IMG/VR virus record: IMGVR_UViG_3300010885_061695
Location: 1-20,274 of that record
DNA length: 20,274 nucleotides
Origin: a virus
Strand: one strand, 5' to 3'
The notes beneath the pieces are model-generated. The model saw only the letters and a program-made list of their open reading frames with translations. It was not told where the DNA came from and did no database searches. Positions 4,594-20,274 of the stretch are shown here, in pieces. Positions within the stretch are counted from its first letter, which is position 1. Every line of letters begins with the position of its first letter. The position numbers were made by a program, and so were the translations under genes.

Positions 4594-5346
4594 ATGGAAT
4601 TTAACTCTCAAATTAAAAGTCAAATTAAAGATTTGTCTCTTAAAAAATTTCCAGAAGAAATTTGTGGTTTTATTTACTCAGATAAAGATAATTACAAATT
4701 TGATATTTATCCTTGCAAAAATAAAGCAAATAATAAAATAAATAATTTTACAATTTCTCCTCAAGATTATTTAAATTGTCAAAGATTAGGCAAAATCGTA
4801 GCATGTTACCACTCTCATTGTAATGATAATATTGAATTCAGCGAAATAGATAAAAATAATAGTAACATATATAAGATTAATTATATATTATATAATGCTA
4901 AATATGATTACTTTAATTTCTATTTTCCTGGAACAAGTAATAATCCATATATAGGCCGACCATTTTTATTAGGTAAATCCGATTGTTTTACTCTTATGAA
5001 AGAGTATGCTCTAAAAGAAGAAGGAGTAAAAATAGATTTTCCCAAAGATTTAATTTATCCAAGAAATTTAGAAGATATCAAAGATTTATATGAAAATAAT
5101 TTTAAAAATCAAGGATTTCTTAAATTAGATAAAAACACTAAACTAGAGAAATCAGATGGAATTATGATGAAATTTGGATCAGTTTCAGATGAGTTTCCGA
5201 CTCATGCAGCAGTTTACTTAGGAAATGGATTAATTTTACATCAACCTTTTAACTCTTTTTCTTGTGTAAATATATATGATAATTTCTTCAAAAAGCATAC
5301 TAGTTATGTTTTGAGGTATAAGGAGCTAGGAAATGGTAAAGGTTAA
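4594..5346 (+). CDS. K: Tail tip assembly protein K: JAMM protease plus NlpC/P60 peptidase
   Basis: A 250-residue protein with the lambda gpK architecture. The N-terminal JAB/JAMM metalloprotease domain has all expected zinc and catalytic residues: E22 in PEEICGF, H73-x-H75, then after seven residues S83-x-x-D86. The C-terminal NlpC/P60 domain has catalytic C131 (KSDCFTLM) and H204 (THAAVYLGNG), with H216/Q217 as the likely third position. The NlpC/P60 half is expected to cut peptide bonds in peptidoglycan. JAMM enzymes usually cut after ubiquitin-like domains, and the neighbour gpI has one. I chose ATG 4594, just after the gpL stop, because the protein then begins like lambda gpK. An in-frame GTG at 4570 overlapping gpL is the alternative. 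The 3' end overlaps gpI by 14 bases. Confidence 0.92.
   Translation: MEFNSQIKSQIKDLSLKKFPEEICGFIYSDKDNYKFDIYPCKNKANNKINNFTISPQDYLNCQRLGKIVACYHSHCNDNIEFSEIDKNNSNIYKINYILYNAKYDYFNFYFPGTSNNPYIGRPFLLGKSDCFTLMKEYALKEEGVKIDFPKDLIYPRNLEDIKDLYENNFKNQGFLKLDKNTKLEKSDGIMMKFGSVSDEFPTHAAVYLGNGLILHQPFNSFSCVNIYDNFFKKHTSYVLRYKELGNGKG
5320..5325 (+). promoter_or_regulatory. Ribosome binding site of gpI inside the end of gpK
   Basis: AAGGAG lies 7 bases before the ATG at 5333 and within the gpK coding sequence. The following CTAGGAA resembles the CAAGG seen after the Shine-Dalgarno at 1141 and 244. It supports 5333 as the start and translational coupling to gpK. Confidence 0.75.
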
Positions 5347-6655
5347 ATTACATGGAGAGTTAGGCCAAGAAATTGGTGAAGATTGGAATCTAGAAGTATC
5401 TAGTGTGGCAGAAGCTTTTCGTGCCATAGAAGCTAATACAAGAAAATTAACTAAATTTTTAGTTTTACAAGCTGAAAAAAATGCAAAATATGAAATTTTA
5501 ATAAATAATCGACCATTATGGGTTCCTAAAGCAGAAGATCTTCCATTAGATTATAAGGATGTTAAAAAAGAACATTTTAGCATGCTTCAACAATCTGAAA
5601 TGTGCATGGATTTTGGAAAACAATTAAAAACTATAGATATTGTGCCAATCCTAGAAGGAGCTGGCAGCAGCGGTGGTGGAGGAGGAGGTGGAGGATGCTT
5701 TCCTGCTGGTACAAAAATATCTACTCCACAAGGAGTAAAGAATATAGAAGATTTAAAAGAAGGAGATGAAATACTGTCTTTTAATAAAGATAAAAATATA
5801 GAAATTGATGTTATAGAAAAAGTTTTTGAGCATGAGAATAATAAAATTTTAAAAATTACACTCTGGGATGGATCAATTGTAAGAGCAACACCCAATCACT
5901 GGTTCTTCAATGAATATAATAGATTTACTCCTTTAGAAAATTTTAAAGTTGGAGATGTTTTAATACATGAAAGTGGCGATGTAATGCCAATTGAAAAAAT
6001 AGAAGAAGATGGAAATGAAAAAGTATATAATTTCCATGTTTTTAAAAATCATACATATATAGCAAATAATATATTTGTGCATAATGGAGGAGGAGGAAAA
6101 GGTGGAGGAGGAAAAGGAGGAGCAGGAGGAGGAGGAATGAAAAGTATATTTGCCGTCTTCTTATCCATTATGTTAGCTCCACTTACTGGTGGTTCAAGTT
6201 TAGGTTTTATGAGTATACTTATGCCAGCTATTTTAGGACTTGTAGCTCTTGGAGTTTCAATGCTATTAATGAAACCACCACCAATGGTAAGTCCACAATC
6301 CATAGCTAATCCTTCTGCAGATTTTGAAGCGTCACCAGATTCTGGAGGAGGAGAACCTTCATACACATTTAATGGACCAGTAAATACAGTAGGAGAAGGA
6401 GGACCAATTCCTCTTGGATATGGAAGACTTATAATTGGAAGTCATCAAGTTTTTAGTTCTTATGATCAAATATATAGAATCCAATCAAGAAATAATGTAT
6501 ACGAAAGTGACGGAAAAGCACCAATTGGAATAGGAGCTGGAGAAAAGAATTATCCAACAAAAAGTTATTATTTTGATACTCAAGGATATCCTATAACTAT
6601 TCAAACTCCTGTTGCTATTGACGGATCTGTGTCGCAAAGTTCTTTATCGGTTTAA
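5333..6655 (+). CDS. I: Tail assembly protein I (ubiquitin-like) interrupted by an intein-like Hint domain
   Basis: The 440-residue protein is lambda gpI split by an insertion. Residues 1-108 are the beta-grasp ubiquitin-like domain, ending in the family's IDIVPILEGAG. Residues 114-121 are eight glycines. Residues 122-251 are a Hint domain. Residues 252-268 are a second Gly/Lys/Ala linker. Residues 269-313 are two hydrophobic segments, and the gpI C-terminal motif follows at 348-373 (GPVNTVGEGGPIPLGYGRL, then GSHQVFSS). Without the Hint domain the protein would be about 310 residues with one continuous glycine linker, close to other gpI proteins. Lambda gpI acts in tail-tip assembly. The ubiquitin-like part may be cut off by the JAMM domain of gpK or, here, by the Hint domain. 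It overlaps gpK by 14 bases and ends 4 bases before gpJ. Confidence 0.9.
   Translation: MVKVKLHGELGQEIGEDWNLEVSSVAEAFRAIEANTRKLTKFLVLQAEKNAKYEILINNRPLWVPKAEDLPLDYKDVKKEHFSMLQQSEMCMDFGKQLKTIDIVPILEGAGSSGGGGGGGGCFPAGTKISTPQGVKNIEDLKEGDEILSFNKDKNIEIDVIEKVFEHENNKILKITLWDGSIVRATPNHWFFNEYNRFTPLENFKVGDVLIHESGDVMPIEKIEEDGNEKVYNFHVFKNHTYIANNIFVHNGGGGKGGGGKGGAGGGGMKSIFAVFLSIMLAPLTGGSSLGFMSILMPAILGLVALGVSMLLMKPPPMVSPQSIANPSADFEASPDSGGGEPSYTFNGPVNTVGEGGPIPLGYGRLIIGSHQVFSSYDQIYRIQSRNNVYESDGKAPIGIGAGEKNYPTKSYYFDTQGYPITIQTPVAIDGSVSQSSLSV
5672..5695 (+). repeat. Glycine-codon tract before the Hint domain (GGN x8)
   Basis: Eight consecutive Gly codons, mostly GGA and GGT, end exactly at the Cys codon of the Hint domain. 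With the tract at 6086-6136 they form imperfect direct repeats bracketing the domain. Confidence 0.85.
5696..6085 (+). other. Hint domain: mini-intein or bacterial-intein-like (BIL type A) element
   Basis: Residues 122-251 of gpI. Block A is CFPAGTKISTPQGVKNIEDL, with the nucleophile C122, followed by the conserved GDEILSF. Block B has T186-P-N-H189 (TxxH). Block F is VYNFHVFKNHTYIANN, with Asn at 233 where inteins usually have Asp, and H240. Block G is IFVHN, ending in H250-N251. The next residue is Gly252, so the Cys, Ser or Thr needed for ordinary protein splicing is absent. The residues for N-terminal thioester formation and for Asn cyclisation are all present. At 130 residues there is no room for a homing endonuclease. 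BIL type A domains lacking the +1 nucleophile are known to autocleave and sometimes splice; which of these happens here is unknown. Confidence 0.92.
6086..6136 (+). repeat. Glycine-rich codon tract after the Hint domain
   Basis: Seventeen codons encode GGGGKGGGGKGGAGGGG, nearly all GGA, and begin at the codon right after the terminal Asn of the Hint domain. It is a direct-repeat partner of 5672-5695 and contains two internal GGxGGAGGAAAA units. Confidence 0.85.
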
Positions 6656-6659
6656 TTAT

Positions 6660-9600
6660 ATGGCTAAAAAATGTAAAGATTGTGATCCAAATAAATATAT
6701 AGAAGGTTTAGCGTATAGAGGCGCAAACGGAATTTCTTATGATGGATTTATCAACTACAATAGCGTAGGGAAACCAACTCAAACAGATGTAACATTAGCA
6801 GATGTAAATGCATTGCTAGATGCTTATAATCCTATTTTTGGAAATGATGATACTACTGCTTTGCCTCCTCAATCTGCGCCTCTTTCATTAAAAGGTATTG
6901 ATAGAAGTCAAGGATTTTGGTTAGTTTGGGGTTTAACAAAAGGTTTAGTAGCGTTTGGTATTCCTGGTCAAAAATTAACTGCAGCCAGTATCCTTAATGG
7001 ATATAATACAACAACAAAAAAAGGAGATAATTTTAATTTTACTGTTACTACAGATCAAGTACCAAGTAGTTTATTTTTTACTGATTTTGGAAAAATAGCT
7101 GATACTGGCTCTAGTGATCCATTAAGATTTAATAGTGCCCTAACAGTACAAAACAGCTTAATTAAAGATAAGATGAATTATGTAGGATACTATACGGGTA
7201 TTATTGTATCGACCCTAAATGGTAGTAAATATATTACGACAGGAACAGGTAAAAATAAAAAAACTCAATTAGAAGTTCTTATAAGTAAAAAAAGTTTAAC
7301 AATTAAATCAAAAGACTCACAGGGGAATGATCCGATTTATGTGACCAGTGCTCCAACAATTCATCTTTTTAAAAATACCACTTTTTCTTATACGTTAACA
7401 ACAAATTTACCGCAAAGTCAATATACAGTATATCTTAGTCCAGCTGATATCAATAGTTTGCAATTATTAGGACTTACTTGGAATAGCTCCAATAAAACAA
7501 TAACTGGCGTGGGTTCAAGTTCACTTGCTGCCGCTGCTAAAAATTTAAGTTTAACTTTTACTGTATATGGTCCAGATAAAGACTCTGGAAATAAGCAAAC
7601 ATTTACATTAGGTATTGTTTACGGAGGTTATAACAGTAAAGAAACATTACCAACAATATCCAATAAAGTATTTAATTTATCAGTTGGTGACGATGTTGGA
7701 AAATTACCTTTAAATGGATTAAATAATAAACATACAATCATAGGAATAGCTTCATTACCCGAAGGATTAACTTTTAATGCAACATCTAAAAATATAACTG
7801 GTACGCCAAAACATGCTGGAACTTTTTATGCATATGCTAGTTGTTCAAATTTAAGAGGATCAAGCAGTAAAGCCACATTAACTTTTAATATAGGCCCGTA
7901 TGTTTTAAATGCAAAAGCCGCAGGAAATACATTTCCTAGCGTAATTAATTTTCCTAAATGGAGCTTTGATAAGATTAAAAATAATTCAGTAACAATATAT
8001 GCAAAACCATCTGGAGATGATATATTAGCATACAAAAAAATTAATATAAGTGATCTTCCAAATATAATAAAAAATGGAGTCCCAACAGATCCAACCGATG
8101 CACAAATAGCTCAAGGCGCAGATCCAAGAAGAGTTCGAAAAGGATTTATGACTGAAATTTTTTACCCTGGTAGAGGAATCAATGAAGAGAGTTATTTTTG
8201 GTTGAGTTTAGATGATCCTACAAAAAATAATACAAAATCAGGAGAATTTAATCTTGAATTAAATGGAAGATATTATTTAAATTATTCAAGTGCAGCAGCA
8301 ATAGATAACCTAGATAATGCTTGTTTTAATCCAACTTCAACGTCTAGTGGTCCAGCGTCTACACCTTATAGTGAATCTTTAAAATTAACTGCTACGAATC
8401 TTGTTAAAGGTGGCATAAGTGGAAATCCAGCAGACAATGTTATAAGCGTTAGTTTTTCTCCAACTAACATAGAACATCAAGTAGTTTATTTAAGTGGACC
8501 AGGACCATTCGATACAGCTAGTGCATTTGCTAAAACAACATTAAGTAGTGGTAAACTAAAATATCCAAATGGAATACCTAATAGAAATGGTACATATACA
8601 TTTTATATCAAAGCTATGGATACTTGCGCTTTTAATTCTAATACGCAAGAATTTGTATCTTATATAGGATCATACTCTCCAAGACCAGGAGATGTATATA
8701 GTTGCTATTATGAATATTGGCAAAGAGGTTATTGGACTTACAATAAAAGCACTCGTAGAAATGATCTTTGGGTTGTTTGTAATAATAATAATAGAGGCTG
8801 TATAAATAGGAAAGTTTCAGGATATCAAAATGTTGTTTTAGGGGGATATAGTATTCCAGGTGGTTGTAATGCGGTTGTATCTTATACTGGAAATACCGTC
8901 ACAAGAGATAATTATGCTTATAGATATGGTAATACTTTGAAAGATTCAAAAGATATAGGAATAAGTTCTTTAACAAATATATCTATTTTAGATGTTTTAG
9001 GCGAAGGACCAATAGAAGGAATTGTTGATTATGAAATATCTCCAAATGCAGGATATGCTCTAGGTGATATAGGATATAAAAATGGTGTTACAATCAAACG
9101 TTACTCACCAAACGAATACGATAAATATGGCATACTTAGATCTATTTATTGGAATGAAATACCTATAGCAGATAGTTCATACGATAAACCTGGTAGTTTA
9201 AATTTTGAATTTATTAGACTTTACTATGACAATGGATCAAGCGCACCAAAACATACAAATATACAATCTTTAGAAAATATAAATCTAGAAGAAGAATTCT
9301 ATACTAGAAGATTATTAAATGGAACTTATGTAAATTTTTTAGAAGCAGTCGCTACAGATGGAACGTATATAGGAAATAGCATTAAATTGCCTAAAAAATT
9401 AACAAATACAAAAGTAGTAGGAACAAAATTATTTGGTAAACGAGTCTTTCAAGATGGAACTTCTAAAACTTATAAAAAATCATTAGTTATTCTTAATAAA
9501 GATATTTCTGGATTAAGACTACATATAAAAGGCTTAAGTTTATTTAAAACTATTGTAGATTTAACCATTTGGGATTCGGCTGATCAAGCAGCTGCAAATT

Positions 9601-11720
9601 CAGTTGCTGGCAGAATAGATCGTCAAGAAATGAGTTTCAATTTATATTTAAAAAGAATAGATGTAGGTCCTGATGGTAAAACAGTTACTTTAATTGGTAA
9701 TCCAAAATACACTGGAGCTACTACTGGAACTTATAGCATTTCATTAAGAGACTATTATGATCAATATTTTGTAAAAGAATATGATGTATTGAATCTTTAT
9801 TATCCACCAAATGATCCAGGTGGTCCTGGAAATGGACCAGATGGTTACCAAAGAGTTCCAAATTATGATCAATTTATAGCTGGATATACAACTTATTCTC
9901 ATAGACACGATGGTAAAGTTTATAATAGTTATGCTAAAGACGTTAATAAATCAAATTCAGACTTGAATGCAAGATATTATGATCACGTAAATCAAAGACT
10001 AAGATATTTTGCTGGAGAAGCAAGAGATTATTCTACTTTAACTATGGTTGGTAAATTAAATCAAGGGCCTTATATTGAAACTTTTGAATGGACGGGATTA
10101 AAAGAATCTGCAAAAACTGGATTTAATCAAGCAACCACAATAGGATGGGAAATAGAAATAGAACCAACTTATATAGAGAGTGTAGATCCAAACGTAGTAA
10201 TAAAAAGCGCTATAGATTCAATAACAGAAATGTATGATGATTTTATTTCTATGCCTAATACCGCTGGAGTTCTAACTACATTTGATGCTAGATATTTTAC
10301 TAGTATTCCACAAAGAGCCTATGATGTAAGAATGCTTAAAGTTAAAGTTCCATCTAATTATAATCCTTTTGCAAAAACTTACGATGGAATATGGGATGGA
10401 ACTTTTAAATTATCATGGACAGATAATCCAGCTTGGTGTTTTTATGATTTAATAACTAATAGAAGATATGGATTAGGAAAATATGTAGACCCAGACCTCA
10501 CAGATAAATGGACATTATATGAAATTGGTCAATATTGTGATCAATTAGTTAGCGCTGGACAAGCTGGTTTATATGAGCCAAGATTTACATGCAACGTCTT
10601 AATTAGCACAAGAGAAGACGCATATAAAGTTATTAATGATATGGCGAGTATTTTTAGAGCGATAGTGTTTTATAATGGTGGATTAATATTCACTTCACAA
10701 GATCGACCAAAAGATGCAATATATATATTTAATAATAGTAATGTCAAAGATGGAGAATTCACTTATAGCAATACAAGCAAAAGAGTCAGAAGAAATGTTG
10801 CTCTAGTAAGATACAATGATAAAAATAATTTTTACAAACCAGCAGTAAAATATGTAGAAGATAGAAATGGTATAATAAGATTTGGAATTAGAGAAACTGA
10901 GGTAAGTGCTTTTGGTTGCACTAGCGAAGGACAAGCAGAAAGACTTGGAAAATGGACACTGCTATCAGAAAATTTAGAATCAGAATTGATTAATTTTGAA
11001 ACTAGTTTACCAGCGATGTATTTAAAACCTGGAGATATTGTATTTATACAAGATCAAAATAGACAAAATAAAATTCTTGGTGGAAGAACTTATGAATTGA
11101 CAAAAGATCATGCTATTTTAGATGTCTCATACGATAATATATCTGGATATTTAAATTCAATTAATGCGTGCAATTTTAATGTATTAACACCTGCAGGCAA
11201 CGTAGAAATTGGCACAGAAATAGGGAATTTTGTAATAGAAAATGCAGACCAATTAAATACTCCAGTTACAATTGATAATGAATTAGTCTCTGGAATAAAT
11301 TCAAAAACTATTAGAAGAAAACAAATACAAACTGTTCAATATGAATCAGCATTTACTAAAACAAACACAGGCGATACTAGTATATTCCAAAATTTTGTTT
11401 CAGTTGTGGATAGTGGTAATTTCGCGGGATATACTAAATTATCTTTTGGTGGACAACTTTTAGATGACAAAACTCATACTTTAATGCAAAATACAGTATG
11501 GACGATAGAAATTAATCCAGATAATTACGATGAACAATATAGTCCAAGTATTAGTGGATTTAACAGTAATGGAGCATATCCTGGTTCAGGATTAGAGCCT
11601 CATATAGACAAAACTCAAAAGTTTAGGATTTTAGATATAGAAGAGCAAGAAGAATTTAGATATAAAATCACAGCTTTACAATATGATGAATCAAAATTTA
11701 AATTAGGAGATGACATTTAA
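6660..11720 (+). CDS. J: Tail tip hub / host-specificity protein J with long N-terminal extension
   Basis: From the ATG at 6660 the protein has 1686 residues. The gpJ core starts near residue 770 (SLTNISILDVLGEGPIEG, GEGPIEG at 781) and includes VPSNYNPFAKTYDGIWDGTF from 1230, IGQYCDQ at 1289 and FGCTSEGQAERLG at 1418. It ends YKITALQYDESKF close to the C-terminus, which matches the end of the lambda gpJ hub region. The lambda distal fibre region is absent. The first 770 residues are extra: a CKDC motif at 5-8, at least two Ig-like domains (about 225-325 and 330-412), further beta-rich sequence, and a Cys-rich patch from 682. gpJ forms the hub at the tail tip. An earlier in-frame TTG at 6612 is unlikely. 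No Shine-Dalgarno is visible; the gpI stop 4 bases upstream suggests termination-reinitiation. Confidence 0.92.
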   Translation: MAKKCKDCDPNKYIEGLAYRGANGISYDGFINYNSVGKPTQTDVTLADVNALLDAYNPIFGNDDTTALPPQSAPLSLKGIDRSQGFWLVWGLTKGLVAFGIPGQKLTAASILNGYNTTTKKGDNFNFTVTTDQVPSSLFFTDFGKIADTGSSDPLRFNSALTVQNSLIKDKMNYVGYYTGIIVSTLNGSKYITTGTGKNKKTQLEVLISKKSLTIKSKDSQGNDPIYVTSAPTIHLFKNTTFSYTLTTNLPQSQYTVYLSPADINSLQLLGLTWNSSNKTITGVGSSSLAAAAKNLSLTFTVYGPDKDSGNKQTFTLGIVYGGYNSKETLPTISNKVFNLSVGDDVGKLPLNGLNNKHTIIGIASLPEGLTFNATSKNITGTPKHAGTFYAYASCSNLRGSSSKATLTFNIGPYVLNAKAAGNTFPSVINFPKWSFDKIKNNSVTIYAKPSGDDILAYKKINISDLPNIIKNGVPTDPTDAQIAQGADPRRVRKGFMTEIFYPGRGINEESYFWLSLDDPTKNNTKSGEFNLELNGRYYLNYSSAAAIDNLDNACFNPTSTSSGPASTPYSESLKLTATNLVKGGISGNPADNVISVSFSPTNIEHQVVYLSGPGPFDTASAFAKTTLSSGKLKYPNGIPNRNGTYTFYIKAMDTCAFNSNTQEFVSYIGSYSPRPGDVYSCYYEYWQRGYWTYNKSTRRNDLWVVCNNNNRGCINRKVSGYQNVVLGGYSIPGGCNAVVSYTGNTVTRDNYAYRYGNTLKDSKDIGISSLTNISILDVLGEGPIEGIVDYEISPNAGYALGDIGYKNGVTIKRYSPNEYDKYGILRSIYWNEIPIADSSYDKPGSLNFEFIRLYYDNGSSAPKHTNIQSLENINLEEEFYTRRLLNGTYVNFLEAVATDGTYIGNSIKLPKKLTNTKVVGTKLFGKRVFQDGTSKTYKKSLVILNKDISGLRLHIKGLSLFKTIVDLTIWDSADQAAANSVAGRIDRQEMSFNLYLKRIDVGPDGKTVTLIGNPKYTGATTGTYSISLRDYYDQYFVKEYDVLNLYYPPNDPGGPGNGPDGYQRVPNYDQFIAGYTTYSHRHDGKVYNSYAKDVNKSNSDLNARYYDHVNQRLRYFAGEARDYSTLTMVGKLNQGPYIETFEWTGLKESAKTGFNQATTIGWEIEIEPTYIESVDPNVVIKSAIDSITEMYDDFISMPNTAGVLTTFDARYFTSIPQRAYDVRMLKVKVPSNYNPFAKTYDGIWDGTFKLSWTDNPAWCFYDLITNRRYGLGKYVDPDLTDKWTLYEIGQYCDQLVSAGQAGLYEPRFTCNVLISTREDAYKVINDMASIFRAIVFYNGGLIFTSQDRPKDAIYIFNNSNVKDGEFTYSNTSKRVRRNVALVRYNDKNNFYKPAVKYVEDRNGIIRFGIRETEVSAFGCTSEGQAERLGKWTLLSENLESELINFETSLPAMYLKPGDIVFIQDQNRQNKILGGRTYELTKDHAILDVSYDNISGYLNSINACNFNVLTPAGNVEIGTEIGNFVIENADQLNTPVTIDNELVSGINSKTIRRKQIQTVQYESAFTKTNTGDTSIFQNFVSVVDSGNFAGYTKLSFGGQLLDDKTHTLMQNTVWTIEINPDNYDEQYSPSISGFNSNGAYPGSGLEPHIDKTQKFRILDIEEQEEFRYKITALQYDESKFKLGDDI
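7647..7895 (+). other. Putative Ig-like (He_PIG-type) domain in the gpJ extension
   Basis: Residues 330-412 of gpJ show the signature SLPEGLTFNATSKNITGTP followed by A-G-T-F and a final strand TLTFNIG. This is the usual order for putative Ig (He_PIG) repeats found in surface and fibre proteins. A more divergent copy may precede it at about 7336-7630. Confidence 0.65.
11704..11709 (+). promoter_or_regulatory. Ribosome binding site of the gene after J
   Basis: AGGAGA lies 10 bases before the ATG at 11720, inside the end of gpJ. The gpJ stop and the new start overlap as TAATG, typical of translational coupling. Confidence 0.6.
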
Positions 11721-14900: not shown

Positions 14901-15085
14901 TATATCTTTCTATTCCTGACTTCACTTTCTCTAAAAAAGGCCCTTACTTATTTAATCAAATTAAAAGAGACTATGAAGCTTGGGTAATTGGTCAAAAAAC
15001 ATTTGCTGTAAAAATATTACTATTAGATAAAAGTGGAGATACACTAAGTCAAATATTTACATTTACTAACAACGAAAATTGTTAA
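11720..15085 (+). CDS. Probable tail-tip or fibre protein with N-terminal Ig-like domain
   Basis: A 1121-residue protein rich in Asn, Ser, Thr, Ile and Tyr and predicted to be mostly beta strand, with no signal peptide or membrane segment. Residues 1-85 are a putative Ig (He_PIG-type) domain with NLPVGFSINNDSGLIKGVPS, then AGSYSIDL and a final TLTLNIQV strand, like the domain inside the gpJ extension. Residues about 90-200 may be a fibronectin-III-like domain ending YLTIFSKNSLGYESSG. The rest is unrecognised. Near the C-terminus C918, C929, C933 and C934 form a cysteine cluster that could bind metal or form disulfides. Its start overlaps the gpJ stop (TAATG). Because gpJ ends at its hub region, this protein may be the distal fibre or receptor-binding part; that is inferred from position and domain type. 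Confidence 0.85.
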   Translation: MSAPIINSTLSVSANIGEYFEYTITASNSPTSYNATNLPVGFSINNDSGLIKGVPSIAGSYSIDLFATNVDGTDSQTLTLNIQVKDSILNLSTNIIQTVSSPDAQISIIDITKNTKGFKVNIKPKKNIDDIKYYNVYLDNINFNLKPNTNDSSLLIKQLPYSELEQTFDYIPRNSGLHYLTIFSKNSLGYESSGILFSGIIPNQQVIKEISFKNFNYYKNDKNDTDDALIGEMNIFPSSGQITVNTPFSLIGFEIDYLSETTEEVANFEGFYLKDFSSYFKEKALNVYCRVIQALDNNSGILFDNTLLRNTSNDVFTFQQKGDSVIKDSYKNDLSIRNTDLIADNQNRSIIPSNSRYFIFDYINNHNAFISKNTRYEEAVNSQNNLLFNPEKDTESSFLQKMLNATGLTGELNKNYILTTNPGHYNTYYISVELTDENGFSSAGGNVESPSNTDLERYTNQDGYKIIKIEHNTISRNKVSNMFKNYRREDNKIVFDIKGDLPIDIGLNSILIIPQKYQENINLQENKTYFDDYIFLRNIDDIKAQNEKNYKIEMIDSQNESKYRITTYLNPDSPLLKDNIFSAKIYYLNSLQAHSLSFYLSENGYTLKALLYYISNTEVIDKYIVLNKFIKDNQNYTSTIAASYQGLVYFFTPESFPYIAWPDQKYRENYLNKHGARMLDFEADGVASGPEFFDYFPKANAEIYDNFPSEIQYKTTYRCLDSYKYSSNNLLEFLTPEDVPTNGINGSSSYLGVYDPGNIGDVDSPNTADFKSINNDLVYFKSKNISYIKFISAGMQKDDAYAIIEFILDIPDAQDFIVQGISGTDTILEKGIKEINGVNHHYFVAKFVSSCGVDTDPILNGTPINQKNIVDSKKMISFLIYPTKIKIIEDPDDVPFFGDLYLLATSFDNNQFSILKECPYTVLNNSTDCVKSCCVQPEDTINQKSIFANFHILSRHIGNQTGNNYPYGKIGGTTNNVLGSIAYRYKAANYSTSNITLEYKKPTNQINPLNFGIVCYPEHNVALDKILIYMKQVNDVNNITWQSADLIDSYIFEDIVKTYPIYLSIPDFTFSKKGPYLFNQIKRDYEAWVIGQKTFAVKILLLDKSGDTLSQIFTFTNNENC

Positions 15086-18000
15086 CGGCCTAAATCTCTT
15101 CCCTTACTGCCTTGATATAATACTCCGCCTGGACGTTGTTCTTCTACTATAACTTTCAATACTTGTTGTCTTAATAATTCTGCAAGGACTCTTGATCTTT
15201 CCATTGTCTTTTTGAATTTCTCTTGATCAGTTTCTTCTTTATTGCTTCCAGTTTGATCTTCTTCTTTTGTGGAGTCTGTTGTTTTACCATTTTGATCAAC
15301 GTTAACGCTTATGTTTATATTATTAGTTACTCCTCCAGCTCCAGTTGTATCAGAAGTTGTTGCTCCACCTTCTGCTTGAGCTTTGGCTCCTTTATTTTGC
15401 TCTTCGATTCCTTTATTTAATTGCTCTAAAGATTTTACTAATTTTGTAATAGATTCTACAAATTGATTTCTAGAATTATCCTGTTGATTTGGTCCTACAC
15501 CTCCAACAGAAGGTAAAGCAGTTCCAACTGGACCACCTTCTGCAAATCCAGTAACTTGTCCTCTGTTTAATCTATCAAAAAATGGTTGTCCAAAGCGATC
15601 TACAGCATCTTTTCTAACTACATATTCTCCGCCCATAAGCATAGCTGGTACATCGTCCTTAGTAGAAGTTCCGCCATAAATCATTCCACCAGTAGCTCTA
15701 CTAGCCCAACTTGGAGTAATTCCTAATCTACTTCCTGTTGAAAACCAATTACTAAATACATTTCCTAAAGAATTAAATCCTGATTGATATCCTGTTCCAC
15801 CAAACCCACCAAAATTTTGACTTCCAAATGCAAATGGACTATACATGCTTGGGGTCATTGGATATTTAAAAGCATTAAATTGAGAAAGACTTGAGTATGG
15901 ACTTGCGCCAATATACTTTAGATAATTATTAAAACCTTTTTCACCAAATGAAGAGAATCTATTTTGTAAAGTATTGCCATAAAATGAAGAGAACTTCGAA
16001 GATAATCTGCCGTAATCACCTTTATTTTTAACATCATATAAGCTACCTACACTTTGATATAGAGTCGGTGAAGCTCCAGAAGTTTGGTCTATTATATTTT
16101 GTAAATTTTGAAAGAAAGGTAGTATTTGATCTGGAGATTGTTGATTTATTCCCAAGAAATCTTGTTGAGTAATAGCTTCTGCTACTGCTTGTGGAGTTAC
16201 TTTCGTTCCTCTTAAATAGTCTCCCATAGCAGGAGAAGGAAAACTCATTTTTGTTTGATAACCAGCACTAGGATTAAATATACTTCTATTATATAAATTT
16301 CCACCTAAATTATATAATGCGTCATAACCTTTTCCAGCTAAATTCTTCATTCCACCCAAACTAGCCATTAATGCTCCACCAATTCCACCTGCTCCACCAC
16401 CAATTGCTGGCATTTTCATTCCAGCATTAGAAATAGTTTTTGTAACGCCACCTTGAGGCATATTAAATGGAGTTGCATTTAATCTATTAGTATTAAATGT
16501 TGCAGCTGTTCCAGTAAAAGCTGGAGCATTAGTTGCTTTCAAGAAATTTGTTACAGCATTAGCACTTCTCGCCTGATTAGCAAATGGATTAGGCTGCATT
16601 CCTATTGTATCAATCCCTTTTGCTATTTGATTGGTCGAAGGAGAAAAAGATGTTAGTGGGAAAGATTGTTTTGATGGCAATCTAAATCCAGCCACTACAG
16701 CAGGAGTATTTGTACCAGCTATATTCCCTGCTGGAATACCCATATTCATTGCTGCAATTTTTGTTGCACCAGTTTTATTTAGTTGAAAATCAAAATGAGT
16801 TCCAGTCGCTCCAGGAGTTTTAGGGCCTTCAAAATTCAAAGAATAATCTTTTTCAGAAAGACCCATACTAGATAAATAATCTTTAATTTGTTGTTTTCCA
16901 GCTGTATAGTCATTTAATGTAAAATCACTTTTAAGTCCAGTTCTATGAGATGTTCCTGCGGACCTAACTCCAGCGTGATAAAGATCATTCATGCCAGTCA
17001 TTCTATTAAAATTAGATCCCAAAGCCCCTTGAATTCCTCCCATTAAATTTAATAATTCTGGACTATTGTATCCTCCACCAAAAGCCTGACCACCCATTTT
17101 TTGTAAATCTGCATAAGTACTATTTGTTGTTAATCCCATTTGAGCTAATGTATAAGTCTTTCCATCTGAACCTTTAACTCTTAAATTAAGAGCATTAGAC
17201 GGAAGATATTGATTTGCCATACCACCAGTTTGATAACCACGAACTAGTCCACCTTTTGCATATCCTCTATTATATCCAAATGGATTAGAATTTTGATTCA
17301 AGAAATCATAAACAAGATTTCCTCGACCAGGAGCAATTGGAGCAACAGGAGATGCAAAATTCATTAGATAATCTTGCTGTGCATTTTGAGTATAAGTTTG
17401 GAATCCTGCTGGCGCTCCTAATCCTACTCCAAATTGAAATCCTCCAATAGTAGAAGTTGGTTGACCATAGTTATAGCTTGAACCTCCATATCCACCCTGA
17501 CCACCAAATTGTGGAAATAGTTGAGCTTGTTGTTTTGAGAACGGATCGCCATAACCACCAAATTGACCTCTTTCAATTGCGTCACTCATAGCTTTTTTCT
17601 GATCATCTGTAAGCTTATTACCTACTATTGCTCCACCAGGCATACTAGAAAATTGCGAGAATCCTCCTGTTAGAGCAGTTTGAAGAAGACCTGCGCCTGT
17701 ATTAAGTATGCCACCAAATATACCTCCAAGTCCACCTCCACCTCCGCCTCCACCAAATAATCCACCTAAACCACCACCGCCACCTAGACCACCTAAAAGT
17801 GGTCCAGCAAGACTCATTCCAACATTTAGCAATCCACCAATCAACATGTTTGATCTTGCTTGATTATATGCAGCCATTCTTCTTGCATTTTCTTCGTCTG
17901 CTGCTTTTTGCGCTAGTCTTCTCTGCTCTTCTACTTGACGATATTGTTCGTTATATCCAGTTTTAAAGTTTGACACTTGCTCTTGATAGTTTTGCATTCC

Positions 18001-20274
18001 AAGAAATCTTTGAGTTCTTAGAGCGTTCATTGGATTATTTTCATCCATTAAAGCTCTACTACTTAACATGTCTGATATATTAAATTTACCTGTTAAAGCT
18101 GGAACATTACCTAATTCACTTGGAGCATTTACTGTAGTTTTAAATGCTTCGGCAGTATAATTATCATTTAATTTTTCTCCATTTGCTCCAAAGAAATCAT
18201 AACTATTATTCAATAATCCAATAACACTTCCGCCACCAGCATATCCTCTTACCATACCGCCTTTATTAAGCATATCCAACATGCCTTTGCCATATTTATT
18301 AACCGCACTTTTTCTTAATACGTATTCTCCATCTGTTAGCATCGCAGGAACATCATCTTTCATTCCACTTCCACCTTTAACATGACCACCAGAACTATAC
18401 TTTTTAATTATTCCTCCTTGAGATTTTCCACCAAATAAACTTCCTAAAATATTACCTAATAATCCTCCACCACCCCCACCTTGTTCACCAAATCCACCAC
18501 CACCAGTTAATCCACCAAGTAAACTTCTCATTCCAATACTAAATTGTTCTTTTATAATTTGTTGAGATATACTTAATAACATATCTTGGAAAGCTTGATC
18601 TGCAGTTTTTGTTCCATCTATAAATGCGCCAAATGCGTCTTCAAATCCAGTTTGCATATTAGTTGCAAGATTAGCAAAAGATTTATTTATTTTATCTGCT
18701 GTTGTTGCAGCATTATCGCCAAACTTATCAAAGAAAGACGTAAGAGGATCAAATCCTTCAGCAAAGTTTCCTTGTTTCAATGATCTCTCCATCAAGCTTT
18801 GACGAGCTGCTGCTCGTTCATCAGAGAACATGTATTGTGAATTTTTACCAAATTCAATTTTATCTATTGATAATTTTAATCTTTCAAAAGCTTGAGTAGT
18901 TGTTATTGCTCCATTATTCCAAGCCTTTTGTATCTCTGCAGCTTCTTGAGTATATTGACTTAAATATTTTATTCTATCTGCACCATATCCTAATTCATCA
19001 CTTAATTGCTTATATCCAGTTATAACTTGTTCTCCAAATGCTTGACTTTTACCTACGCTTAAATTTTGTTCTATTTTAGAATAATCTATATTACCTAGAG
19101 CAGCAGAACTAATTCCTCCAGGAAGAGAGAACTGCCTTTGTAATGCTTGTATATCTGTAATAGATCTTGTACCTTGAGTGAAAGCTGCATTTTCTGCTGC
19201 TAAAGCTTCTCTATATTTTTCTACGCTTTCTTGATGTTCTTTCCAAGCTTTTAGATACTCATCCAATAATCCTTTTTCATCTACCTTTTTTAATTCTTCT
19301 CCTATTAATTTAGAATACTCTCCAGTACTAATTAATCCATCTACTAAACCTTGTACTCCATTTATTCCTCCTGATTTATAAGCTTGTTGAAGTTTTCCAA
19401 TATCAACACTACCTACTGCTTCTCCTGTTTTACTGAAGTTAGAAAAAAGATCAGATAATTGTTGTCCACCAGTTTGTATATATCCTCTATAACTCATTTG
19501 ATCTCTTTGAGACATGCCTTTAATTTTTTCTTGTGGACTTTTCATGTAATCACTTGTAAAAAAGTCATACCATTTTTCACCTGCTAAATCATTTATTTTT
19601 TGAGTTGTTCCTAATAATCCTCCACCAGCAGCAAGTCCTTTTGATTCTCTTTGAGCTTTAATTTGAACTTCGCTTATCTTTTGCCTCAACTCTGCTGTAT
19701 CGCCTATCTTTTTATAAAGATCAACAATTTCATCTCCTGCACCTGGAAGTGCGGCATTTAATTGAGTAATACTTTTAGCAAAATCAGTTTCAGATTTATT
19801 TCTTAAATCTAGTCTTGTTTTTGCATCTAAATCTGCTCTACCTTCTATTGAACTTAAAGTTTCTAAAGATACTGATAAGTTTTGAGTTGCAGCTGAAATA
19901 CTATTAAATTTTTCTGTTGAAGTTTCTATTGATTTTGCAACATCTGGCATGATATCATTTAATTTTTCAAATACATCATAAGCTGCCATGATTCCACCAA
20001 TTCCACCTCCAACAGCTGCCCCCATTGGTCCTCCAACAGCAAATCCTAATCCAGCATAAGAAGCTGCTGTACCCAATCCAGATATTCCAGCTTTAGTTGC
20101 TCTTCCTCCAGCTGTATTTTCATTTCCAATAAACTGAGCAGCTGTATCTGCTAATAATGGAGCAGCTAATGCAAGTCCTGCTCCATATCTTGATCCAAAT
20201 CTTCCTAATGCTCCACGAGCTCCACCAGATATTCTTCCTTGTTGATTTCTTGCAAATACTCCCATCTGATTATT
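15082..20274 (-). CDS. Tape-measure protein with M15-like peptidase motifs (5' end open at window edge)
   Basis: At least 1730 codons. The first in-frame ATG is at 20265, but the frame stays open to the window end and the visible start already looks internal, so the N-terminus is probably missing. In order: hydrophobic Ala/Gly helices (about 28-95); long helical region (100-530); a lambda-tape-measure C-terminal-like segment near 535-580 (GFEDAFGAFIDGTKTADQAF); a Gly-rich part; a first KDDVPAMLTDGEYVLRK unit near 637; a coiled coil near 765-800; Gly-rich hydrophobic stretches; an M15-like motif set at 1107-1159; a second DDVPAMLMGGEYVVRK unit near 1537; and a C-terminal EEQRPGGVLY. Such proteins set tail length and leave through the tube at infection. 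It converges on the fibre gene, and the two stops share a TTAA. Confidence 0.9.
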   Translation of the reverse strand, partial: NNQMGVFARNQQGRISGGARGALGRFGSRYGAGLALAAPLLADTAAQFIGNENTAGGRATKAGISGLGTAASYAGLGFAVGGPMGAAVGGGIGGIMAAYDVFEKLNDIMPDVAKSIETSTEKFNSISAATQNLSVSLETLSSIEGRADLDAKTRLDLRNKSETDFAKSITQLNAALPGAGDEIVDLYKKIGDTAELRQKISEVQIKAQRESKGLAAGGGLLGTTQKINDLAGEKWYDFFTSDYMKSPQEKIKGMSQRDQMSYRGYIQTGGQQLSDLFSNFSKTGEAVGSVDIGKLQQAYKSGGINGVQGLVDGLISTGEYSKLIGEELKKVDEKGLLDEYLKAWKEHQESVEKYREALAAENAAFTQGTRSITDIQALQRQFSLPGGISSAALGNIDYSKIEQNLSVGKSQAFGEQVITGYKQLSDELGYGADRIKYLSQYTQEAAEIQKAWNNGAITTTQAFERLKLSIDKIEFGKNSQYMFSDERAAARQSLMERSLKQGNFAEGFDPLTSFFDKFGDNAATTADKINKSFANLATNMQTGFEDAFGAFIDGTKTADQAFQDMLLSISQQIIKEQFSIGMRSLLGGLTGGGGFGEQGGGGGGLLGNILGSLFGGKSQGGIIKKYSSGGHVKGGSGMKDDVPAMLTDGEYVLRKSAVNKYGKGMLDMLNKGGMVRGYAGGGSVIGLLNNSYDFFGANGEKLNDNYTAEAFKTTVNAPSELGNVPALTGKFNISDMLSSRALMDENNPMNALRTQRFLGMQNYQEQVSNFKTGYNEQYRQVEEQRRLAQKAADEENARRMAAYNQARSNMLIGGLLNVGMSLAGPLLGGLGGGGGLGGLFGGGGGGGGLGGIFGGILNTGAGLLQTALTGGFSQFSSMPGGAIVGNKLTDDQKKAMSDAIERGQFGGYGDPFSKQQAQLFPQFGGQGGYGGSSYNYGQPTSTIGGFQFGVGLGAPAGFQTYTQNAQQDYLMNFASPVAPIAPGRGNLVYDFLNQNSNPFGYNRGYAKGGLVRGYQTGGMANQYLPSNALNLRVKGSDGKTYTLAQMGLTTNSTYADLQKMGGQAFGGGYNSPELLNLMGGIQGALGSNFNRMTGMNDLYHAGVRSAGTSHRTGLKSDFTLNDYTAGKQQIKDYLSSMGLSEKDYSLNFEGPKTPGATGTHFDFQLNKTGATKIAAMNMGIPAGNIAGTNTPAVVAGFRLPSKQSFPLTSFSPSTNQIAKGIDTIGMQPNPFANQARSANAVTNFLKATNAPAFTGTAATFNTNRLNATPFNMPQGGVTKTISNAGMKMPAIGGGAGGIGGALMASLGGMKNLAGKGYDALYNLGGNLYNRSIFNPSAGYQTKMSFPSPAMGDYLRGTKVTPQAVAEAITQQDFLGINQQSPDQILPFFQNLQNIIDQTSGASPTLYQSVGSLYDVKNKGDYGRLSSKFSSFYGNTLQNRFSSFGEKGFNNYLKYIGASPYSSLSQFNAFKYPMTPSMYSPFAFGSQNFGGFGGTGYQSGFNSLGNVFSNWFSTGSRLGITPSWASRATGGMIYGGTSTKDDVPAMLMGGEYVVRKDAVDRFGQPFFDRLNRGQVTGFAEGGPVGTALPSVGGVGPNQQDNSRNQFVESITKLVKSLEQLNKGIEEQNKGAKAQAEGGATTSDTTGAGGVTNNINISVNVDQNGKTTDSTKEEDQTGSNKEETDQEKFKKTMERSRVLAELLRQQVLKVIVEEQRPGGVLYQGSKGRDLGR
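15530..15690 (-). repeat. Tape-measure repeat unit 2 (DDVPAML...GEYVVRK)
   Basis: Encodes GGMIYGGTSTKDDVPAML, then MGGEYVVRKDAVDRFG, a short helix, and LNRGQVTGFAEGG. It aligns end to end with the unit at 18236-18400. The shared D-D-V-P-A-M-L and G-E-Y-V-[LV]-R-K-x-A-V cores are clear despite divergence. Confidence 0.75.
16760..17060 (-). other. Peptidase M15-like domain inside the tape-measure protein
   Basis: TSHRTGLKSDF gives H1107, G1110 and D1114 in the spacing of the M15 motif S-x-H-x-x-G-x-x-x-D. GTHFDF supplies H1157, 43 residues after D1114, as the third zinc ligand. The preceding NRMTGMNDLYHAGVRSAG fits the strand-and-loop before that motif. The usual catalytic Glu three residues before the last His is not seen, so activity is uncertain. 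Family members cut peptidoglycan peptides. Confidence 0.6.
18236..18400 (-). repeat. Tape-measure repeat unit 1 (DDVPAML...GEYVLRK)
   Basis: Encodes GGHVKGGSGMKDDVPAML, then TDGEYVLRKSAVNKYG, a short helix, and LNKGGMVRGYAGGG. This unit is common in tape-measure proteins of environmental phages. It recurs about 900 residues later at 15530-15690. Confidence 0.75.

Follow-up and report, generated by a model that had tools for sequence, protein, structure and literature searches.

A BIL type A-like Hint domain between the ubiquitin-like and plug regions of a phage gpI-like protein and its relation to the JAMM domain of gpK

The processing of gpI at its ubiquitin-like domain (Ubl) and the role of the gpK JAMM domain have been in question since 2006, when the JAB domain was proposed to cut TAPI at the last Ubl glycine (PMC1779556). 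The same work describes the gpI/TAPI family as Ubl-bearing. A preliminary description of the DNA considered here had referred to this proposal, which is indeed a published one. It had further noticed a self-processing domain in the gpI linker, which was suggested either to replace JAMM cleavage, to delay processing until gpK is present, or to leave the Ubl for later trimming or removal by JAMM. In these phages, a natural variant is available: the region of the Ubl-plug bond has its own putative autocatalytic domain.

Tail-tip cassette and domain order of gpK and gpI

The window, i.e., the whole analysed stretch of 20,274 nucleotides, is a virus record of 20.3 kb whose plus strand carries a lambda-like tail-tip cassette. 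According to Pfam and PHROG profile matches, the cassette includes the genes of a Phage_min_tail protein, a gpL-like protein, gpK, gpI and gpJ. The features discussed below are the following.

4594..5346, plus strand: gpK-like protein with JAMM and NlpC/P60 domains, 250 aa (Pfam and phrog_30 matches; AlphaFold mean pLDDT 88)
4615..4890, plus strand: JAMM/JAB domain of gpK, residues 8-99 (Prok-JAB, E=1e-7)
4954..5313, plus strand: NlpC/P60 domain of gpK, residues 121-240, with C131, H204 and H216 (NLPC_P60, E=1.2e-5)
5333..5346, plus strand: gpK/gpI overlap, 14 nt (ORF coordinates)
5333..6655, plus strand: gpI-like tail-tip protein (TAPI), 440 aa (phrog_32 'tail assembly protein', E=4.8e-24; 24 viral relatives)
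5333..5662, plus strand: ubiquitin-like domain of gpI, residues 1-110 (phrog_32 over 1-114; predicted secondary structure, moderate confidence)
5657..5659, plus strand: Gly109, conserved last Ubl glycine, bond region proposed for JAMM (invariant with and without Hint)
5663..5695, plus strand: N-side glycine linker, residues 111-121
5696..6085, plus strand: Hint domain, BIL type A-like, residues 122-251 (PT-HINT, intein and PDB profile matches; predicted fold)
6080..6085, plus strand: Hint C-terminal His250-Asn251, with Gly252 at +1 and no nucleophile
6086..6130, plus strand: C-side Gly/Lys linker GGGGKGGGGKGGAGG (alignment of the clade)
6131..6652, plus strand: TAPI C-terminal (plug/tripod) region, residues 267-440 (sequence match to 9l9p and 25vf)
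6660..11720, plus strand: gpJ-like central fibre/hub protein (profile matches)

In gpJ, an N-terminal extension of about 700 residues with a weak match to the Ig-like He_PIG family precedes the canonical hub (window 6660-8700). The minus strand encodes a 1727-aa protein (15082-20265) that is convergent with the tail-tip genes and carries a tape-measure-type motif twice (phrog tape measure families).

The gpI-like protein is encoded between the K and J genes and combines a Ubl having a conserved terminal glycine with a hydrophobic C-terminal plug, as expected of TAPI/gpI. Its parts follow in the order Ubl, glycine linker, Hint, linker GGGGKGGGGKGG and plug region. The last of these is matched in sequence by two solved tail assembly proteins, 9l9p and 25vf. 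Lys256 and Lys261 of the C-side linker are conserved in 17 of 17 window-clade rows. The full gpI model has a mean pLDDT of 51 and low confidence outside the Hint domain, so the Ubl and plug coordinates of this model carry no claim. Tandem gpI genes, two upstream of gpJ, were observed in L070, L126 and L195.

Read from the ATG at 4594, gpK has the intact motif E22...H73-S-H75-x7-S83-x2-D86, exactly as described earlier. This corresponds to the E-xn-H(S/T)H-x7-S-x2-D signature and MPN fold of JAMM/JAB peptidases. The five residues are invariant in 17 close relatives of the window gpK, in which the NlpC/P60 residues are conserved too, and across 34 diverse gpK proteins the invariant columns include these five together with the NlpC Cys and His. 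In a structure search with the AlphaFold model, the best PDB match of the gpK fold was 5lda, the complex of PfJAMM1 with SAMP2. Met1 is not conserved in distant clade members, for which initiation a few codons further upstream is the better fit; numbering from 4594 is adequate for the window. The gpK of L211, L253, L264 and L288 has JAMM with the NlpC/P60 half apparently missing. In the lambda virion, gpK was not detected (PMC11101478, PMC10721106). A bacterial defence system has been reported to conjugate Ubl to phage central tail fibres (PMC11676413).

Identity of the gpI insert and its putative chemistry

The presence of a self-processing domain in the gpI linker, noted in the preliminary description, was borne out by several searches. 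PT-HINT was matched with E=2.6e-11 (Pfam), and the intein N-terminal region model TIGR01445 scored above its cut-off (NCBIfam). Pfam, NCBIfam and PDB profile searches agree on residues 120-251. The top PDB profile match is the BIL domain CthBIL4 (2lwy, E=3e-18), which also ranks first when the predicted Hint is searched with Foldseek (E=7.7e-12, TM 0.86 on the target); BIL2 of Tetrahymena BUBL (6y75) ranks second. The 10-residue pLDDT means of the Hint model range from 62 to 94 over residues 121-250. The catalytic motif comprises Cys122, T186-P-N-H189 and His250-Asn251 within CFPAGT...VHN/G, and the catalytic residues are invariant in the clade. Among the 18 distinct gpI-linker Hints, all have Cys1 and His-Asn, and the +1 residue is Gly in 17 and Lys in one. 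The Cys, Ser or Thr expected at +1 of a class 1 intein is absent from all 18, the window having Gly.

Hint fold, N-terminal Cys, TxxH block and terminal His-Asn without a +1 nucleophile together give the BIL type A pattern. Type A BILs lack the +1 nucleophile and cleave their own C-terminus through Asn (PMC7765530). By motif and fold, the gpI insert is thus a BIL type A-like Hint. A Hedgehog-type Hint was considered and rejected, as the domain is internal and followed by the plug rather than C-terminal with a sterol-recognition region.

The Hint domain is retained in every viral gpI locus complete over the region among the 24 found (L024 begins downstream of it). Over 17 sequences, the median pairwise dN/dS of the Hint was 0.127, as compared with 0.153 in the Ubl and 0.157 in the plug. 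The domain is fixed in the window clade and is under purifying selection equal to that on the flanking domains. The E-values, its presence in all region-complete relatives and a dN/dS of about 0.13 rule out a chance match.

The reading favoured here, held with about even confidence, is autocatalytic excision of the Hint, mainly as cleavage separating Ubl from plug, with JAMM keeping an older role independent of the Hint. Cys122 would form a thioester at Gly121, and Asn251 would cyclise at its bond to Gly252. Cleavage at both Hint ends would then set the Ubl (1-121) apart from the plug (252-440), while some Ubl-plug ligation might occur through aminolysis. The Hint would provide an additional maturation device where an N-terminal pro-domain (the Ubl in gpI, a leader or extension in gpJ) meets the built-in tail-tip part. 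The identity, fold and catalytic residues of the domain favour excision, as do Hints at the matching pro-domain boundary of gpJ. Given its own Hint at the Ubl-plug region, separation should be switchable by Cys122 and Asn251 independently of JAMM. In the lambda virion, the gpI plug is seen from residue 101 or 135 on and the N-terminal region is unseen (PMC11101478, PMC10721106); this absence of the Ubl from the maps may reflect disorder and not cleavage, which weakens it as an argument for separation.

The main alternative, though a less probable one, is splicing, in which the Hint would leave and join Ubl to plug as a neutral intein-like passenger lacking a homing endonuclease, and JAMM would act on the spliced gpI, as in other phages. 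The exact insertion seen in a second clade (described below) resembles a splicing element and speaks against cleavage, and Cys1, which is invariant together with TxxH and His-Asn, suits splicing as well. The glycine flanks would presumably be the least hindered for aminolysis, and the patchy gpJ Hints appear to have been gained or lost repeatedly. However, cleavage at both ends is likelier than splicing because no Cys, Ser or Thr follows Asn251. All gpI-linker Hints lack this residue, whereas a +1 Ser is present in the intein L162, which the same pattern scan retrieved. Furthermore, joining in the window clade would yield a linker of about 30 Gly-rich residues, for which no Hint-less gpI seen offers a parallel.

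A catalytically dead Hint, serving as a structural or assembly module, is highly improbable. Many viral structural proteins do carry Hint domains at variable places, but Cys1, TxxH and His-Asn are invariant both in the relatives and in the independent second clade.

JAMM with and without the Hint domain

JAMM and Hint had been placed at the same gpI junction. Both do map to the Ubl-plug linker region; the bonds, however, differ. The one proposed for JAMM is at Gly109 of VPILEG109AG, and the putative Hint-cut bonds are Gly121-Cys122 and Asn251-Gly252. The JAMM bond thus precedes the Hint by 12 residues in the window and by two in the second clade. Since these bonds are distinct, JAMM and Hint could both act on one molecule, and it is possible that JAMM acts on the same Ubl as well as the Hint.

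The interplay was examined in a sample gathered by scanning for a motif at the gpI C-terminus, which takes no account of Hint, linker or JAMM. It comprised 115 gpI proteins with a length of 150 aa or more; three loci had a Hint in gpI and seven had one in gpJ, one locus having both. The EHHSD residues were read in 89 of the 92 gpK proteins beside the sampled gpI. The other three are a contig ending before JAMM, a split gene with a separate EHHSD JAMM ORF, and one S-to-Y change. Over all loci collected and not this sample alone, JAMM is intact in 30 of 31 gpI-Hint loci, the remaining one (L108) being lost to the contig end. It is likewise intact in all 16 gpJ-Hint loci having gpK, with a glycine run or without. 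In L052, the closest Hint-less gpI, VPVLEGAG runs directly into the hydrophobic region, and JAMM of the L052 gpK is intact.

The correlation of Hint and gpK, which had been set beforehand as the check, was not found in these loci, and JAMM is equally conserved where the glycine linker is missing. The idea that the Hint replaces JAMM finds no comparative support, JAMM being intact in essentially every gpK sampled, be it next to a gpI with a Hint, with a glycine run or with neither of them. The idea of a Hint waiting for gpK finds none either, as the state of JAMM is the same with and without the Hint. Substitution and timing could be suggested by the two activities sharing one linker region and by the overlap of the gpK and gpI genes, yet no decay or change of JAMM is tied to the Hint, and the position of the Hint in gpJ or gpI varies while gpK is constant. 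Both are very improbable. The overlap, earlier taken to ensure co-translation, does exist (5333-5346) but is family-wide and no special device for this purpose, since 14 nt is the commonest value in the family (24 of 92 gpK/gpI pairs, 74 of which overlap).

Judging by these sequences, the Ubl-bearing gpI is constantly accompanied by JAMM, and a Hint has been added occasionally, with neither relaxation nor change of JAMM. JAMM and Hint appear to be mutually independent and not substitutes. A separate task for JAMM is favoured by its persistence where the NlpC half is apparently missing and irrespective of Hint or linker. In the favoured reading, this older task would probably be performed at or near Gly109 of the Ubl, which is consistent with PfJAMM1 bound to SAMP2 being the best match of the predicted gpK fold.

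Recurrent Hint domains in gpI and gpJ and comparison with known systems

In the second clade (L240, L291-L296), gpI carries a Hint at the corresponding junction, immediately after VLQGAG and ending in VHN/K. When this Hint is deleted in silico, VLQGAG followed by KGLLGIILGAALI gives a standard gpI linker, and the Hint-less L279 reads VTAGAGKGLGSIILGAALI. The insertion is therefore clean against empty homologues in the second clade, whereas in the window clade, with long Gly linkers on both sides, homology does not fix the boundary. A single origin of the gpI Hint was rejected on the Hint tree (p-AU 0.004) and more weakly on that of gpK (p-AU 0.037); both results are to be read with caution, L240 being a long branch. 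As judged from the phylogenies, the Hint has entered the same gpI junction at least twice. A search of bacterial genomes for gpI-Hint relatives gave no match. In 50,697 records of isolated phages (tblastn), no Hint was found in gpI or at the gpJ N-terminus, the Hint matches being other proteins.

Hints were surveyed by a pattern scan for a Gly-run plus CFxxGT, followed by local profiles. An N-terminal Hint of gpJ was found in about 18 loci; gpJ proteins with such a Hint are those of L180, L193, L201, L223, L256, L083, L070, L092, L101, L128 and L154. The motif scan also revealed N-terminal gpJ Hints with adjoining gpK and gpI in a contig of Oxalobacter sp. and in three contigs from MAGs (L319, L332, L314, L337). 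At the C-terminus of gpI or gpJ, Hints are rare in the same pattern scan and local profiles. Many other viral proteins (L054, L076, L123, L141, L163 etc.) end in a Gly-run and a Hint, the terminal His-Asn being followed by only about 3-14 residues.

Part of the window clade has a second Hint inside gpJ, e.g., at gpJ-ORF residues 711-842 in L031, 690-822 in L033 and 681-813 in L213. It is situated a short way ahead of the conserved gpJ hub start (...SLTNISLLDVLGEGPIEGIV) and is thus equivalent in position to the N-terminal Hint that other phages have. The window gpJ has no Hint at about nt 8706, where a different Cys-containing segment is found. The gpJ-internal Hints form the sister group of the window-clade gpI Hints in the Hint tree (SH-aLRT 89), and copying between the neighbouring genes gpI and gpJ would agree with this grouping. 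In the empty/occupied gpJ pairs L250/L180, L173/L083 and L174/L201, the GAGGGG motif flanks the Hint on either side, which would leave the C-terminal product complete without ligation. These pairs, together with the ten changes that gpJ Hints require on the gpK tree, indicate that gpJ Hints come and go. The repeated occurrence of Hints at the pro-domain boundaries of gpI and gpJ suggests a maturation strategy; a literature search with limited reach into subscription journals returned no description of a Hint in either protein.

In the cassette as a whole, the window shares with lambda (TAPK/TAPI/TAPJ) the gene order, a JAMM+NlpC gpK, a Ubl+plug gpI, a hub gpJ and overlapping genes. The lambda-type gpI linker is without a Hint, whereas that of the window has one. 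PfJAMM1 acting on SAMP2 (5lda) and gpK have the JAMM fold and metal-site residues in common. Unlike PfJAMM1, gpK has its JAMM fused to NlpC/P60.

The known system nearest to gpI in its Ubl-BIL arrangement is the ciliate BUBL locus. In gpI, the Ubl (1-110) lies upstream of the Hint (122-251), which is the BUBL-type order of Ubl and then BIL. The Ubl-flanked BIL2 of Tetrahymena makes Ubl-lysine isopeptide bonds without ATP (PMC8616854), and this same domain is the second-best fold match of the gpI Hint. By analogy, the gpI Hint might pass the Ubl Gly thioester to a lysine or another amine, e.g., Lys256 of the conserved GGGGK stretch or a partner tail protein, without E1, with the gpK JAMM as deconjugase. 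The second clade has a lysine at +1 and every row of the window clade has one at +5, which would suit such ligation, as would the best match of the gpK JAMM to a SAMP2-bound enzyme. Nevertheless, it is unlikely: no acceptor is known, GGGGKGGGG is ordinary also in Hint-less gpJ N-termini, and the conservation of JAMM is the same in phages lacking a Hint. More doubtful still is a self-contained conjugation cycle, in which the Hint would ligate the Ubl to lysine with no need of E1, E2 or ATP and the gpK JAMM, encoded by the overlapping gene, would remove it. If true, such a cycle would make the locus a viral equivalent of the ciliate BUBL system.

CthBIL4, a BIL type A domain, is similar to the gpI Hint in Cys1, the His-Asn end and the missing +1 nucleophile. 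Both BIL type A domains and the gpI Hint occur in variable non-housekeeping proteins. Known BILs, however, have been described for bacterial proteins, while the gpI Hint is located behind a Ubl in a phage tail-tip plug protein. Phage inteins in enzymes such as helicase and terminase share the Hint fold and first-step chemistry with it. They reside in conserved enzyme motifs and usually have a +1 Cys, Ser or Thr; the gpI Hint has neither and carries no homing endonuclease. The polyubiquitin-like BUBL1 locus of Tetrahymena, with BIL2 (6y75, 6tmm), places a BIL beside a ubiquitin-like domain, as in gpI. BUBL1 is a eukaryotic multi-Ubl protein with reported isopeptide ligation, whereas gpI, as known from its sequence, has a single Ubl fused to a structural plug.
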